A stretch of 17,981 nt of DNA from Deltaproteobacteria bacterium (GTDB lineage Bacteria; Desulfobacterota; Syntrophia; Syntrophales; JAAYKM01): the NCBI GenBank assembly GCA_019136935.1, contig JAGVTI010000260.1, positions 1 through 17,981 on the forward strand. The letters are read 5' to 3'. Positions within the stretch are counted from its first letter, which is position 1. Each line of letters opens with the position of its first letter. This document shows, in pieces, positions 1,253 through 17,981 of this stretch. Under the pieces are notes generated by a model. That model did no database searches. It was given only the letters and a program-made list of their open reading frames with translations, and had not been told where the DNA came from. The position numbers and the translations under genes were made by a program.

Positions 1253-2449
1253 ATGGAAGACATCCACCTCTTAAAAGCATCTTTTGACGCATTTCAGCAG
1301 TCTTCCGCCCGTCTGCAGGAAGTTTACGGCCGGTTGCAGGAAAAAATCGTTCAGGTCGGCCTGGAGCTGGAGGAGAAAAACGCCGAGCTGTCACGGATCA
1401 ATGCGGAGCGGGAAAATATGAAAAACTATCTCCGCGGCATTCTCGAGAACCTGACGGCGGGGATCCTGGTTACGGACGGCGACGGGGGCGTGAAGATCGC
1501 CAACCGTGCCGCGCAGAATATTCTCTCGGCCCGTGAAGAAGATCTTCAGGGAGTTCATATCCGTCAAATATTTGACGGAATGGAGCCCGGCAAGGTCGAT
1601 CACATCCTGAACGGCCATTCCAGCGGGCATGCCGGTCATCGCATCACCCTGAACGGCCGGGTGCTGGAAATATTCTCTTCCCGCATTACGACGGTCGATG
1701 GAAAGCCGGGCGACACGGCCTGGGTCATGTACGACATGACCGGAACCTTGAAGCTGGAAAAACAGGCGCGCTACATGGAAAAAAACGCCGCCATGCTCGA
1801 AATGGCCGCCCGGATCGCCCATGAAGTGCGCAATCCCCTGGGAAGCATCGAGCTTTTTTCGTCCCTTTTGATGCGCAGTGTACGGGAAGCGAAGCAACGG
1901 GACTGGGTCGACCGGATCATTCAGTCGGTCAAGAACATCGATCAGAAAATCGAGGAGCTTCTGCGGCATGCCAAAACGGTGGAACCCCTTATGGAAATGA
2001 TGAACGTCCATGATCTCCTGAAAGAGGTTCTCTTGTATTCCGACCAGATTTCCGATCAGGGACACGTATTTCTCTCCGTGGAATATGACCCGGCGGAGCC
2101 CGTTATCCGGGGAAATCCGGTGATGATCCGCCAGATTTTCATGGGCCTTATCCTGAATGCCCTCAAGTCGCTTCCCGAGGAGGGGCGGATTCATATCCGC
2201 ACGAAGATCGAAGACGGCAAAGCGAAAGGGCCGGCCCTCCGGATCAGCTTTACGGACAACCGCCCGGGAGATTCGGGCGATCACATCCAGCGGTTTTTCA
2301 GTCCCGAGGAAGGCGACGAACGGATGGCGGGTTTTCATTTTGCCGTGATCCGGAACATCGTTTCCATGCATAACGGTGCCTTGTCCGCCGAGAGCGGAGC
2401 CGACGGGACGACGTCATTCAGCATAGTTTTCCCCTTGGTCGAACCATAA
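1253..2449 (+). CDS. flrB: Flagellar two-component sensor histidine kinase, FlrB/FleS type
   Basis: This is a soluble sensor kinase, predicted to control the response regulator encoded 40 bases downstream. Residues 1-60 look coiled-coil, including the FxxFxxSxxLxxxYxxLxxK pattern typical of FlrB/FleS proteins. A PAS domain follows at about 60-165, then HisKA with the phospho-acceptor in AHEVRNPLGS (His190), then a HATPase domain at about 280-395. There is no transmembrane segment, so it acts in the cytoplasm. The start is the first ATG after an in-frame TAA at 1247-1249; the Shine-Dalgarno is weak. The N-box Asn is present (LILNALKS), but the G1 box reads DNRPG (335-339) instead of DxGxG, and the G2 box reads AGFHFA (359-364) instead of GxGLGL. 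ATP binding may therefore be impaired. The pairing with FlrC is inferred from adjacency and family. Confidence 0.88.
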   Translation: MEDIHLLKASFDAFQQSSARLQEVYGRLQEKIVQVGLELEEKNAELSRINAERENMKNYLRGILENLTAGILVTDGDGGVKIANRAAQNILSAREEDLQGVHIRQIFDGMEPGKVDHILNGHSSGHAGHRITLNGRVLEIFSSRITTVDGKPGDTAWVMYDMTGTLKLEKQARYMEKNAAMLEMAARIAHEVRNPLGSIELFSSLLMRSVREAKQRDWVDRIIQSVKNIDQKIEELLRHAKTVEPLMEMMNVHDLLKEVLLYSDQISDQGHVFLSVEYDPAEPVIRGNPVMIRQIFMGLILNALKSLPEEGRIHIRTKIEDGKAKGPALRISFTDNRPGDSGDHIQRFFSPEEGDERMAGFHFAVIRNIVSMHNGALSAESGADGTTSFSIVFPLVEP

Positions 2450-2489
2450 GCGTGACGGGAAACGAGCCGACAGAAACGAGTGTAAAAAA

Positions 2490-3902
2490 ATGACAGACAA
2501 AACGAGAAGAATTCTCATTGTGGATGACGATCCGTCCATGCGGTATGCCCTGTCCGAGTCCCTGGAGGCGTGCGGCTATGAAGTGGAATCTGCGGATAAC
2601 GGATCCGAAGCCCTGCAGAAATTCCAGGCTCGGCCCTTCGGGATCGTAGTGACCGATATGAGAATGCCCCGCCTGGGAGGAATGGATGTCCTGAAAGGCG
2701 TCAAAAAAATATCGCCACAGACGCCGGTTATTCTCATCACCGCCTACGGAACCGTCAGCACGGCCGTCGAGGCCATGAAAGAAGGGGCCTCGGAGTTTAT
2801 CATGAAGCCTTTTTCCCTGGATGATCTGCAGGCCGTGGTGAAGAAAGTCCTTGTCTCAAGCGTTGCGCCGGAAGAAGAAATCCTTCCGGAGACGCCCGTA
2901 TCGACGGCGGTGGAAATCATCAGCCAGGCCGCCAATGTCCGATCTCTGCTGGCCCTGATGAGAAATGTCGCCAAAAGCAAATCCAGCATTCTGATCCAGG
3001 GCGAAAGCGGGACGGGCAAGGAACTGTTTGCCCGTTATATCTATCGCCACAGCAGCCGGGAGGATCGTCCCTTTGTCGCGATCAACTGCGCCGCCATTCC
3101 CCATCACCTGCTGGAAAGCGAAATGTTCGGTTACGAAAAGGGAGCCTTCACCGGCGCCGTTCAGAGAAAACCGGGCAAGTTCGAACTGGCCGACGGGGGG
3201 ACTCTTCTGTTGGACGAGATCGGCGAGATGGATATCCAGCTTCAGGCCAAGCTCCTACGGGTGCTTCAGGAGTCGGAAGTGGATCGCCTGGGCGGTAGGG
3301 AACCGGTTTCCATCGATGTCCGGATCATCGCCACGACGAATGCGGATCTGAAAAAAAGCACCGAGGAGAAGAAATTTCGGGAAGACCTGTTCTACCGTCT
3401 GAACGTCATTCCCATCCATATCCCTCCCCTGCGGGACCGAAAAGGGGACGTGGTTCTGCTCGGCGATTATTTTTTGAAGAAATACAGCCGGATCAACGGG
3501 AAGAAGAAACCCGTTATTTCTCCGGAAGCATTCCGGATTCTGGAAGACTATTCCTGGCCGGGCAACGTCAGGGAATTGGAGCATGTCATAGAACGGTCGG
3601 TTTTGATCTGTGACGGGGATGTCATTTTCCCGGAGCATCTGTACCTGGAAAACCCCATCCGGTATGTGCCAAAGGAGACCCCGGCCGGGGGGGGGACGGA
3701 ACCGGACCTTTCGGTCCAGGCCGCAACGGGGGAACCGGTTACGCTGAAGGAAATGGAAAAGACGATGATTTTCGATGCCTTGAGACGGGTTAAGGGAAAC
3801 CGGACGCAGGCCTCCAAAATCCTGGGGATCAGTGTAAGGACGATGCGTAACAAACTGCAGGAGTACGAATCGGAAGGCGAAGCGATTCCTTCCGATTCGT
3901 AA
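2490..3902 (+). CDS. flrC: Sigma-54-dependent flagellar response regulator, FlrC/FleR type
   Basis: This NtrC-family activator opens sigma-54 promoters of mid/late flagellar genes. A receiver domain spans residues 6-122, with the acidic pocket D12-D14, phospho-acceptor Asp56, Thr84 and Lys106. The AAA+ domain follows, with Walker A GESGTGKE (171-178), the sigma-54 contact loop GAFTGA (218-223) and Walker B in GTLLLDE (237-243). A Fis-type helix-turn-helix lies near the C terminus (GNRTQASKILGISVRTMRNKL). All catalytic motifs are intact. The linker before the HTH contains Gly400-402, encoded by nine consecutive G bases. The last codons lie inside a perfect inverted repeat. The start ATG overlaps a run of seven A bases and has only a weak Shine-Dalgarno. 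Three sigma-54 promoters downstream are the probable targets. Confidence 0.95.
   Translation: MTDKTRRILIVDDDPSMRYALSESLEACGYEVESADNGSEALQKFQARPFGIVVTDMRMPRLGGMDVLKGVKKISPQTPVILITAYGTVSTAVEAMKEGASEFIMKPFSLDDLQAVVKKVLVSSVAPEEEILPETPVSTAVEIISQAANVRSLLALMRNVAKSKSSILIQGESGTGKELFARYIYRHSSREDRPFVAINCAAIPHHLLESEMFGYEKGAFTGAVQRKPGKFELADGGTLLLDEIGEMDIQLQAKLLRVLQESEVDRLGGREPVSIDVRIIATTNADLKKSTEEKKFREDLFYRLNVIPIHIPPLRDRKGDVVLLGDYFLKKYSRINGKKKPVISPEAFRILEDYSWPGNVRELEHVIERSVLICDGDVIFPEHLYLENPIRYVPKETPAGGGTEPDLSVQAATGEPVTLKEMEKTMIFDALRRVKGNRTQASKILGISVRTMRNKLQEYESEGEAIPSDS
3864..3901. repeat. Perfect 14-bp inverted repeat over the 3' end of flrC
   Basis: The left arm at 3864-3877 (TACGAATCGGAAGG) is the exact reverse complement of the right arm at 3888-3901, with a 10-base loop. 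It covers the last codons of flrC and its stop codon region. No T-tract follows, so it is not a standard intrinsic terminator. It could be an mRNA-stabilising stem-loop, or a DNA operator, because it ends about 30 bases upstream of the -24 element of the flgB promoter. Confidence 0.8.
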
Positions 3903-15468: not shown

Positions 15469-16230
15469 TTGGACATCGCAACCATCATCGGAATCATCGG
15501 CGGCTTTACGCTGGTCATTACGGCCATGGGCTGGGGGGGAGGATTGTCCTGGTTCTTGGATCTGCCTTCGATGATGATTGTTCTGGGGGGAACATTCGGT
15601 GCGGTCCTGATCAACTATCCCCTGTCGACGGTTGTCAAGGTCATTCCCGCGGCGAAAAACATCTTCTTCAAACGGGAAACGGAAGTCCAGGAAGTGATCG
15701 AACTGTTTGTCGAAATGGCCGGCATTACCCGGCGGGAGGGGCTTCTGTCCCTGGAGCGGATGGAAGCGAAAATCGAGGATCCCTTCCTGTCCAAGGCGGT
15801 GGGGCTGGTTCTGGACGGTGTCGATCCGACGGATGTGGAAATCATCCTGGAGACGGAAATCCAGTCGGTTGCGGAACGGCACAGGATCGGAGCGGAGATC
15901 TTCACGACCATGGGGAATTTCGCGCCGGCGATGGGTCTCATGGGCACTCTGATCGGCCTGGTGAAAATGCTGATGCAGATGAGCGATCCCGCCATGATCG
16001 GCCCTTCCATGTCCCTGGCCCTGATCACTACCTTTTACGGTGTCATCCTGTCCAATCTCGTCTTCCTGCCCATTGCGGGCAAGTTGAAGACTCAGAGCAG
16101 TCATGAGCTCTTTATCAAGTACCTGATGCTGAACGGCACTTTGGCCATGCAGTCGGGGGACCATCCCCGGATGGTGAAGCAGAAACTGCTTTCATTCGTG
16201 GCCCCGCGGGAAAGGGGGGCAGCCTATTGA
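15469..16230 (+). CDS. motA: Flagellar stator subunit MotA (PomA-like)
   Basis: MotA forms the pentameric inner-membrane ring of the ion-driven stator. The 253 residues match the short PomA-type form: membrane segments near 3-20 and 30-50, a cytoplasmic domain with the charged torque patch ITRREGLLSLE (Arg88/Arg89, Glu96), then segments near 150-170 and 180-203. The pore-lining Pro153 (GNFAPAMG) is present. Thr160, Thr187 and Thr188 align with PomA Thr158, Thr185 and Thr186, which coordinate sodium. Sodium coupling is therefore possible but unproven. Translation starts at TTG. The stop overlaps the TTG start of the next gene, implying coupling. Confidence 0.95.
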   Translation: MDIATIIGIIGGFTLVITAMGWGGGLSWFLDLPSMMIVLGGTFGAVLINYPLSTVVKVIPAAKNIFFKRETEVQEVIELFVEMAGITRREGLLSLERMEAKIEDPFLSKAVGLVLDGVDPTDVEIILETEIQSVAERHRIGAEIFTTMGNFAPAMGLMGTLIGLVKMLMQMSDPAMIGPSMSLALITTFYGVILSNLVFLPIAGKLKTQSSHELFIKYLMLNGTLAMQSGDHPRMVKQKLLSFVAPRERGAAY

Positions 16231-16898
16231 GACCGAAAATTCCGTGGCAGCGTCCAATGACCGACGTTCCCGTTGCCGGCTGGCAGACGGTTTACTGCTC
16301 GTTCGCCCTCATTCTCGTGGTCTTTTTCGTCATGATGGTTTCCTACTCCGTCGTTTCCGGGAGGGGAATGAAAACCGTCCGGAAGCATTTTGCCCGGGGT
16401 TCTTCCCTGCACGCCCCCGGGTCATCCGTGCAGCCCCTGTCGGGAATCAAGTCGGCGGAGCCGGGGGAGGCCCTCTCCGTTGTCATCCAGGACGCCACAA
16501 CCCGGTTCGGCCTGGGTAACACCGTGAGGGTCAGGATGGAATCCGGGGGCATCGATATTCTCATGCAGGATCGTGCTCTTTTCCCCGAAGGTGCGGTCGA
16601 TGTCGATAAGCGAATCCATCCCTATCTGAATGTCATCGGGGATGTCGCCGCCAGGAACGGCCTGCACGTTCAGGTGAAATCCTATGCCGGATACGAGGGT
16701 TCATCAGGCACGGATCCCCGATCGTCCTGGCAGTTGTCGGCCCAACGGGCCGTGAATGTCATGAGGTACTTTCTGGCTTACGGGCGCCTCGCCGCCGGCC
16801 AGGTGAGCGCATCCGGGTTCGTGGATGCGGCTTCCGCCGTGCCGGATACGACAAATGGCGGCAGCCGGATTGAACTGCATTTGAGCGTGAAGGAATGA
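16227..16898 (+). CDS. Divergent MotB-like protein lacking the ion-binding aspartate
   Basis: The 223-residue product has the MotB plan: a single N-terminal membrane segment (about residues 19-41) and a periplasmic OmpA-like domain (about 115-220). In the membrane segment WQTVYCSFALILVVFF aligns residue by residue with the MotB pattern W-x-x-x-Y-A-D-F. The essential Asp is replaced by Ser25. The OmpA core is also altered: VKSYAGYEG (150-158) replaces the usual VEGHTDNRP, while the later SSWQLSAQRAVNVMRYFL helix and GSRIELHLSV ending are retained. It is thus unlikely to conduct ions alone and may pair with the following MotB or act as a scaffold. The TTG start overlaps the motA stop and has AAAGGGGGG upstream; an alternative ATG is at 16257. 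Confidence 0.85.
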   Translation: MRPKIPWQRPMTDVPVAGWQTVYCSFALILVVFFVMMVSYSVVSGRGMKTVRKHFARGSSLHAPGSSVQPLSGIKSAEPGEALSVVIQDATTRFGLGNTVRVRMESGGIDILMQDRALFPEGAVDVDKRIHPYLNVIGDVAARNGLHVQVKSYAGYEGSSGTDPRSSWQLSAQRAVNVMRYFLAYGRLAAGQVSASGFVDAASAVPDTTNGGSRIELHLSVKE

Positions 16899-16911
16899 TC
16901 GGGGTACGGCG

Positions 16912-17622
16912 ATGCACAGAAGGCGTTTCAAATACAAAAAAACGGCCGTCGTCACCGAGCCGACAGGAATCGGCGGGAGATGGATTGTAACCTTCAACGA
17001 CATGATTACGCTCATTCTGACGTTCCTTGTTTTGATTCTCTCCATGTCCGATATGGATAAGGCCAGTATCGACCAGGTCTCCCAGTCGGTCAGCGAAGCC
17101 TTCGGCATCGGAGGGGTCCGGGCGCCGCTGGTTCTTCCGAGAACGGTCCAGCCTTCCGTCGACCGGGGACAGATCCAGGCGGACCGCAACGCCGAGATCT
17201 CCGGGATGGCGGTCAAGATTGCATCGCTCCCGGGCATGGAGGCCCGCATGAGTCCGGGGGGAATTCAGGTTACGTTGAGCGAGAAGGTCCTGTTTGATCC
17301 CGGATCGGATGTGCTGGCGGCGGACAGCGGGCGGGTGCTGATGTCGCTGGTTCCCTTTCTGCTGAAGGCCGGTGCGTTCATTACCGTGGAAGGCCATACG
17401 GATAACCGGCCGGTTGACAAGGGGCGATTCCCCTCGAATTGGGAGTTGTCGACCGCCCGGGCGGTCAGTGTCGTCAGCTTCCTGGAGAAGGAGGGGGGAA
17501 TTCCTCCGGAGCGCCTGTCCGCCGTCGGTTACGGCGATACGAGGCCCCGGATCGGAAACGATCATGCGCGGGCGCGCCAGATCAATCGAAGAGTGGAAAT
17601 GAATTTAAAATTTCAAAAATAG
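16912..17622 (+). CDS. motB: Flagellar stator subunit MotB (canonical)
   Basis: MotB anchors the stator to peptidoglycan and carries the ion through the channel. The 236-residue protein has a basic N terminus, a membrane segment with the ion-binding Asp30 in WIVTFNDMITLILTFLVLIL (24-43), then the SMSDMD plug-proximal sequence. The OmpA-like domain has VEGHTDNRPV (about 159-168), SNWELSTARAVSVV and a C-terminal NRRVEMNLKF, all intact. It starts 13 bases after the divergent MotB-like gene. The SMSDMD sequence resembles PomB/MotS (sodium-type) stators. Function as the working MotB of this operon is well supported. Confidence 0.95.
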   Translation: MHRRRFKYKKTAVVTEPTGIGGRWIVTFNDMITLILTFLVLILSMSDMDKASIDQVSQSVSEAFGIGGVRAPLVLPRTVQPSVDRGQIQADRNAEISGMAVKIASLPGMEARMSPGGIQVTLSEKVLFDPGSDVLAADSGRVLMSLVPFLLKAGAFITVEGHTDNRPVDKGRFPSNWELSTARAVSVVSFLEKEGGIPPERLSAVGYGDTRPRIGNDHARARQINRRVEMNLKFQK

Positions 17623-17636
17623 CGCGAGGGGTAACC

Positions 17637-17981
17637 ATGGCAAAGGAAGAAAAAAGTGAAGAGGCCTTAGAGCCTGTCGAGGAGGTAAAGGGGAAAAAGG
17701 GGGTGATGAAATGGATCGTCATCGGCCTGATGGTGTTCGTCATCGCAGGGGCGGCTGTGGGAGGGGGGCTTTACGTTTTCAATAACGTTCTGGGAGCGAA
17801 AAAAGACAACGCCCAGGCCCCGCCGATCATCGGCAGCATCTGGAGTCTCGACCCGTTTATCGTCAATCTCCTGGATAACAACGGCGAACGGTATTTGAAG
17901 GTCGTCATTGAATTCGAGGTGGCGGATCCATCGATCATCCAGGAACTGGATCAGGTCAAGCCCAGAGTCAGGGACGGCATT
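17637..17981 (+). CDS. fliL: Flagellar basal-body associated protein FliL, 3' end missing
   Basis: FliL is a single-pass inner-membrane protein that rings the stator and supports torque. The visible 115 codons encode a charged cytoplasmic tail (MAKEEKSEEALEPVEEVKGK), a membrane segment at about 24-46 (MKWIVIGLMVFVIAGAAVGG) and the start of the periplasmic SPFH-like domain with the conserved DPFIVNLLDNNGERYLKVVI segment. The gene runs off the window in frame. A GAGGGG element precedes the ATG. Position after motB is standard. Confidence 0.93.
   Translation, partial: MAKEEKSEEALEPVEEVKGKKGVMKWIVIGLMVFVIAGAAVGGGLYVFNNVLGAKKDNAQAPPIIGSIWSLDPFIVNLLDNNGERYLKVVIEFEVADPSIIQELDQVKPRVRDGI

Follow-up and report, generated by a model that had tools for sequence, protein, structure and literature searches.

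In a 17,981-nucleotide stretch of contig JAGVTI010000260.1 (assembly GCA_019136935.1; Desulfobacterota, Syntrophales), hereafter the window, the 3' end of a flagellar gene cluster carries the genes motA, motB', motB and fliL in this order on the + strand, and the first of the two MotB-like proteins, MotB', lacks the aspartate that binds the ion in MotB. The same was found for the first B protein in 73 of 75 operons of the phylum with the gene order motA-B-B, and the second B protein had the aspartate in all 75. We propose, with a probability of about 0.57, that the operon makes a three-protein flagellar stator, MotA5-MotB-MotB', in which MotB' would be the non-conducting half of the axle. A first-pass annotation of the window had described one motA followed by two MotB-like genes, and the open reading frames (ORFs) and their coordinates agree with it exactly. 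Its placing of Ser25 in the first protein against Asp30 in the second is borne out by the codons TCG and GAC and by the alignment of the membrane helices (GWQTVYCSFALILVVFFVMMV in MotB' and RWIVTFNDMITLILTFLVLIL in MotB, with Ser25 opposite Asp30). The two motifs that it had named, VKSYAGYEG in the first protein and VEGHTDNRP in the second, are likewise present, so that GHTD of MotB reads SYAG in MotB' of the window.

Loss of the aspartate among homologues and operons

A protein search returned 28 relatives of MotB', and the motif YCSFALI was invariant in all 26 that were aligned (two fragments were left out), which suggests that the loss of the aspartate is more than chance. When these 28 proteins were taken together with the best 120 of 4433 matches from a profile search, the MotB aspartate site was occupied by Ser in 144 of the 148 homologues and by Ala in two, the remaining two not covering the site. 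Among the best 120 of 3371 matches of a further search, in which more distant first B proteins served as queries, we found 65 Ser, 32 Gly and 14 Ala, together with five Asp, two Asn, one Thr and one protein in which the site was not covered. Proteins that carry a name in their source are called chemotaxis or flagellar motor protein MotB, OmpA family protein or hypothetical protein; with such generic names, the difference is hidden by annotation.

The 75 operons were picked for the order motA-B-B, 60 of them through MotB' sequences and profiles and 15 through a profile of the second B protein; since part of the matching places in the phylum was read, their total is at least 75. At the aspartate site, the first B proteins had Ser in 54 operons, Ala in 14, Gly in four, Asp in two and Asn in one. 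A search with the profile of the Asp-bearing second B protein does not favour Asp-less first copies, and in the 15 operons added in this way the first B protein lacked the aspartate in every case. That round comprised 60 stretches, mostly places matched by the MotB' helix profile and by the second-B profile and a few of them from genomes already sampled, and these contained 15 motA-B-B operons, 42 single B genes, two B-B pairs without motA and one B-B pair ending at the contig end. Kept apart from the 75 were loci L029, L032 and L178 (incomplete), L054 and L067 (classed as single), L033 (another kind of MotB) and duplicates. At the single motA-B loci of the first set, the aspartate was present in 43 of 45; the two exceptions, L054 and L067, have Ala, and as the stretch ends after the first B gene in both, their proteins are probably first B proteins of tandems. 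Both questions that the first-pass annotation had raised about relatives, whether orthologues keep the aspartate and whether motA with two motB genes is conserved, are answered by these counts: nearly all orthologues are without it, and the arrangement recurs in 75 distinct operons. Two side observations concern individual loci. A Gly subgroup of first B proteins comprises L060, L062, L063 and L068 (YTGF, YSGF or YAGF at the site), and L103 (2433-3176) and L065 (1444-2247) encode first-position B proteins with Asp and with Thr at the third position after it.

Within the order of the window's genome, 36 of 155 genomes matched MotB' at an E value of 1e-5 or better, a few of these matches being ordinary MotB, and tandem operons were read in 12 families. 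In the phylum, the MotB' helix profile, which also caught ordinary MotB, matched 121 of 395 genomes at 1e-5, and the second-B profile matched 209 of 395 at 1e-8. One scan of genome contigs with a MotB' profile gave 21 loci, all titled as metagenome-assembled genomes, under the names Deltaproteobacteria, Syntrophobacterales, Syntrophales, Syntrophaceae, Desulfobacterales, Desulfobacula and, twice, 'Pseudomonadota'. The names among the homologues listed belong to the same or near groups (e.g. Desulfomonilia, Desulfofervidaceae and Thermodesulfobacteriota), and the single 'Pseudomonadota bacterium' among them, P0263, has Asp. Searching plasmids with MotA yielded nothing of use.

The membrane helix beyond the aspartate

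We further compared the residues that surround the aspartate site. Of 196 Asp-bearing proteins, 184 had a polar residue (Thr, Ser, Cys or Asn) at the third position after this site (+3), compared with 3 of 75 Asp-less proteins; the polar residue is gone along with the aspartate, which points to an alteration of the ion-facing side as a whole. For Vibrio, the cited part of a simulation study gives high water affinity for PomB S27 (the +3 residue) and D24 and for PomA T158 and T186, and describes the carboxylate of PomB as essential (PMC6677748). Of the residues assigned to packing, Phe at +9 was retained by all 60 first B proteins of the first set, Phe at +8 by 50 of them and Trp at -6 by 43. 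Judged from these residues, the MotB' helix looks like one whose ion-facing side is inert and whose packing side is kept.

Selection and history of motB'

The ratio of nonsynonymous to synonymous substitution rates (dN/dS) was 0.14, 0.17, 0.21 and 0.38 for the first B gene in four close pairs (two of which share L121), and 0.17, 0.24, 0.19 and 0.34 for the second B gene in the same pairs; values for MotA were lower (0.01-0.11). These ratios were computed on stop-to-stop frames and include some bases before the start codon. Between the window and its sister genome, motB' gave a dN/dS of 0.15 at a dS of 1.65, which is near saturation, and three wider pairs gave 0.15, 0.09 and 0.21 for the first B gene with dS above 1, also near saturation. 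No internal stop codons were reported in the listed MotB' matches of the window's order (155 genomes). The gene is under purifying selection and is not a pseudogene, so that the decay of the first protein that the first-pass annotation had considered is contradicted by the four close pairs. A local mutation, a sequencing error or a pseudogene is ruled out by the conservation among homologues together with dN/dS.

Two trees were computed, a quick one of 188 B proteins and a careful one of 84 chosen B proteins, in which first and second B proteins form largely separate lineages. In both, the first B proteins and the first members of Asp-bearing B-B pairs without an adjoining motA lie on one side of a branch (support 89/93.7 in the 84-protein tree, not starred). 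MotB' therefore probably represents an old lineage of paralogues, some Asp-bearing relatives among them, and not a recent duplicate. A single loss uniting all Asp-less proteins was rejected by the approximately unbiased (AU) test (84 rows, 28 Asp-less and 56 others), with a P value of 1.7e-34 that is weakened because the group was defined once the first tree was known. On the 188-protein tree, rooted on one Asp-bearing single MotB, eight losses are needed if the aspartate was never regained. If regain is allowed, the two trees call for at least four changes. It appears from the trees that the aspartate was either lost several times in the same gene or lost and regained; it may have been regained in L103, whose Asp-bearing protein is placed among Ala and Ser relatives in the 188-protein tree. 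In this sample, loss never occurred in the second gene.

B-B pairs in which both proteins have Asp, with no motA in the stretch read, were also seen at L070, L073, L079, L082, L084, L086, L089, L090, L095, L100, L118, L125, L132, L133, L172 and L198. Of the three read over their whole length, L086 and L090 have a flgI-like gene, recognized by eye, just upstream of the pair, and L118 does not.

The periplasmic domain

In OmpA-family structures, the aspartate of GHTD contacts peptidoglycan. Of the peptidoglycan-contact residues, MotB' of the window has lost the Asp and retained the Arg, whereas both the Asp (Asn accepted) and the Arg are retained in 61 of 74 first B proteins (one of the 75 was gapped). 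The altered motif does not define the MotB' family; it is a separate event of the window's lineage and a few others, and on this point the first-pass annotation, which had counted the motif as part of the same phenomenon as the loss of the ion-binding residue, needs correction. The GHTD aspartate of the first B protein was lost in the window's genus (with the sister locus L005) and at L012, L019, L023, L031, L058, L064 and L204; at L020, L022, L069 and L149, the second B protein alone lacks an intact Asp/Arg pair.

An AlphaFold2 model of MotB' (48 sequences; mean predicted local distance difference test score, pLDDT, 78) has an N-terminal helix at residues 18-43 and an OmpA-like domain with pLDDT mostly above 90. 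The best Foldseek match of this model was 3khn, the MotB-type periplasmic domain of DVU_2228 from Desulfovibrio vulgaris (E value 7.5e-11), followed by MotS of Bacillus, and MotB, MotS and PomB were all among the matches. The likeness to 3khn lies in the periplasmic domain; unlike it, MotB' of the window has no GHTD aspartate. The sequence profile of MotB' was nearest to full-length MotB chains, 6ysf and 6ysl included. The periplasmic domain of MotB' is thus predicted by the model to be folded, without the aspartate that contacts peptidoglycan.

Link to the flagellum and to MotA

The tandem pair gave the only matches to MotB_plug (PF13677) in 13 of the 26 tandem genomes examined, nine of the 15 genomes in the second PF13677 survey having been preselected as tandem-only from the first. 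Flagellin was found in all 16 genomes tested, including all 13 tandem-only ones. With the tandem as the only stator found and flagellin present, the tandem should power the flagellum in those 13 genomes.

The accompanying MotA appears ordinary. In the 60 tandem MotA of the first set, Thr occupies the equivalents of PomA T158, T185 and T186, assigned by motif, in 60, 59 and 60 proteins, respectively; in the window's MotA, Thr160, Thr187 and Thr188 were taken as these residues by the same criterion. All 60 have Arg in what we take to be the region of E. coli R90, and the presumed E98 region has Glu in 42, Gln in 17 and Asp in one. The retained PomA-type Thr and the Arg suggest that a normal, probably sodium-type, flagellar MotA goes with the pair. 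As a side observation, Gln in the E98 region was seen in 17 of 60 tandem MotA, compared with 1 of 45 other MotA.

A second stator pair of the window's genome (G000) lies on contig C340 (locus L145; 246-404 and 440-1342, - strand) and comprises a MotA homologue and a MotB whose helix is GGSWKVAYADFVTALMAFF.

Gene features of the locus

The features of the locus are given in Table 1. The start of motB' lies inside the motA stop, and translation is probably coupled; an alternative start of motB' is the ATG at codon 11, and 13 bases separate motB' from motB. MotA matched PF01618 with 100.7 bits, and its best NCBIfam models were PomA (253.1 bits, short of its cut-off of 341) and MotP (245.2 bits, short of 394). 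MotB', which adjoins motA in the flagellar cluster, scored 30.4 bits against OmpA (PF00691; cut-off 27.2) and 18.3 bits against MotB_plug, under the cut-off of 24 that some other first B proteins pass (e.g. in G097, G099, G140 and G142). The sister genome G006 carries the same cluster. Upstream of the flagellar genes, at 1253-3902 of the window, lie look-alikes, recognized by eye, of a PAS-type sensor histidine kinase and a sigma-54 response regulator, which probably control the cluster.

Table 1. Positions of the stator genes and their key residues in the window
Feature	Position	Strand	Remarks
motA	15469-16230	+	253 aa; TTG start; PomA/MotP-like MotA
motB'	16227-16898	+	223 aa; MotB paralogue without ion-binding Asp; TTG start overlaps motA stop
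Ser25 codon TCG of motB'	16299-16301	+	At MotB Asp position
VKSYAGYEG of motB'	16674-16700	+	Altered peptidoglycan-binding motif; residues 150-158
motB	16912-17622	+	236 aa; canonical; MotB_plug 50.5 bits, OmpA 62.0 bits
Asp30 codon GAC of motB	16999-17001	+	Ion-binding residue; alignment with motB'
VEGHTDNRP of motB	17387-17413	+	Intact peptidoglycan-binding motif
fliL	17637-17981, cut by window end	+	Fourth gene of conserved order; named by eye and from common gene order

A three-protein stator and its alternatives

A flagellar stator consists of five MotA around two B chains. According to the rotary model as given in the cited part of PMC9389320, the two B chains alternate, and MotA advances in steps of 36 degrees, one per ion, with 10 ions per turn. 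In the stator proposed here, MotB' would occupy one of the two places at the axle in the centre of the MotA ring, packing through its conserved Trp/Tyr/Phe-Phe helix, and in most of the species sampled it could also anchor to peptidoglycan. It would carry no ion; only the Asp of MotB would take up and release an ion, probably Na+, and MotA would turn about 72 degrees per ion, with five ions per turn, instead of 36 degrees and 10 ions. Because a homodimer of MotB' would be dead and, with its gene beside motA, wasteful of MotA, a preferred or obligate mixed dimer is the simplest useful arrangement. Among the roles that the first-pass annotation had offered for the first protein, a MotB/MotB' heterodimer with one active channel fits the data best, and its other suggestions, a regulatory dominant-negative subunit and a scaffold, seem less likely; the heterodimer itself, its stoichiometry, the type of ion and the step size are what we infer.

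Several observations weigh against such a stator. The membrane helices of the first and second B proteins of one operon are on average 29% identical, and helix conservation among the first B proteins is 0.45, compared with 0.67 among the second. Thirteen of the 26 tandem genomes, including that of the window (contig C340), have a further MotB. Two of the 75 first B proteins keep the aspartate, as do the first members of 14 B-B pairs that group with MotB', so that the lineage is not defined by its loss. Reciprocal loss of the peptidoglycan motif, considered as a sign of a common dimer, was not beyond chance: in 74 operons, the motif was lost from 13 first and 8 second B proteins and from both in four, where independence would predict about 1.4. 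E. coli MotB D32N is dominant negative. PomB-D24N is described as non-motile in the cited part of PMC6677748, and the two phenotypes together suggest that other stators may function poorly with a mixed dimer in which one chain has the Asp.

Other roles of MotB' were weighed against the same data. That it is a decaying duplicate without a role is scarcely credible: the aspartate is lost, and in the window's lineage the peptidoglycan motif too, but YCSFALI is invariant in 26 of 26 homologues, dN/dS in close pairs is 0.14-0.38, the listed matches have no internal stop, and tandem operons occur in 12 families of the order. MotB' might instead lie outside the MotA pore, as a scaffold or anchor that recruits stators or holds them round the rotor in the manner of MotX/MotY or FlgX. 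Such a role would agree with the Asp (or Asn) and Arg for peptidoglycan contact that 61 of 74 first B proteins retain, with the lower helix identity among first B proteins noted above (0.45 against 0.67) and with the presence of MotY, through the OmpA-like domain, among the PDB relatives of MotB'. However, the helix still aligns with that of MotB, all 60 first B proteins compared keep Phe at +9 and 43 of them Trp at -6, the hydrophobic replacements concentrate where the ion path would be, and the window's own lineage has lost the peptidoglycan motif; we regard a scaffold as rather unlikely.

Separate, non-conducting MotA5-MotB'2 units could act as a brake, as a reserve or by titrating MotA, with output set by the ratio of MotB to MotB'. 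This reading agrees with the place of the Asp-less copy beside motA in 73 of the 75 operons (which were picked for that order), with the MotB-like helix, and with the missing carboxylate and the near absence of the polar +3 residue. Equal gene dosage and the place beside motA would, however, yield many dead units, in 13 of 26 genomes the tandem was the only stator found, and a gene that lost its Asp repeatedly (or lost and regained it) suits, in our judgement, a permanent half-axle better; separate units therefore seem unlikely. Lastly, the operon could supply two interchangeable stators, MotA with MotB and MotA with MotB', the latter binding its ion through a different group, for example the Ser hydroxyl. 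For Aquifex, the part of PMC4525482 cited here describes a single motA with two motB genes, both of which function as chimeras in E. coli. Nevertheless, Ala or Gly replaces Ser in 18 of 75 first B proteins, the polar +3 residue is nearly always gone, and the carboxylate is described as essential in the part of the PomB study cited above (PMC6677748), which makes this last alternative very unlikely. Against these readings, the mixed MotA5-MotB-MotB' stator remains the one that we prefer.

Comparison with known systems

In PomAB and MotPS stators, one B protein is used twice, with Asp in both copies. The window's MotA is nearest to the PomA and MotP models and retains the equivalents of T158, T185 and T186, which likens it to stators of the PomAB/MotPS type (TGI4 group in the cited part of PMC12505986). 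The operon resembles that of Aquifex aeolicus, in which one motA is followed by motB1 and motB2; the cited part of PMC4525482 gives 97% identity for their N-terminal and membrane regions, with only Gly20/Ser20 differing, compared with 29% for the helices here, and reports some motility in E. coli for chimeras of both. With regions so nearly identical and both chimeras motile, both Aquifex proteins would be expected to keep the ion-binding Asp, whereas here the first B protein is without it. A further likeness is to AglR/AglQ/AglS of Myxococcus xanthus, which combines one MotA-type subunit with two different B-type subunits. In the cited parts of PMC9389320 and PMC3169522, however, AglQ and AglS are of the ExbD/TolR type, both with the conserved Asp, and serve gliding and not flagellar motility, and the first of these sources gives as unknown whether AglQ and AglS form a mixed dimer. 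MotB' matched only OmpA and MotB_plug at E values up to 1, with no match to ExbD/TolR (PF02472).

Thus, an ion-driven 5:2 stator and motors with two B proteins are already known, and what is new is an asymmetric pair with an Asp-less partner; no report of an Asp-less MotB encoded with a MotB was found in the titles, abstracts and passages of the open-licence papers that were consulted. The chances are about even that a large part of Desulfobacterota drives its flagella with MotA5-MotB-MotB' stators that have one ion path, need half the ions for each turn of the MotA ring and move in 72-degree steps, the aspartate having been lost several times (or lost and regained) next to motA and, in this sample, never in the second gene. 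If the proposal is true, a natural stator with one ion path would directly test the 5:2 rotary model and its 36-degree steps, as set out in the cited part of PMC9389320. Such a stator would move in 72-degree steps; at equal ion-motive force, each unit would give about half the torque for half the ion cost, and the dimeric axle would be seen not to need symmetry.

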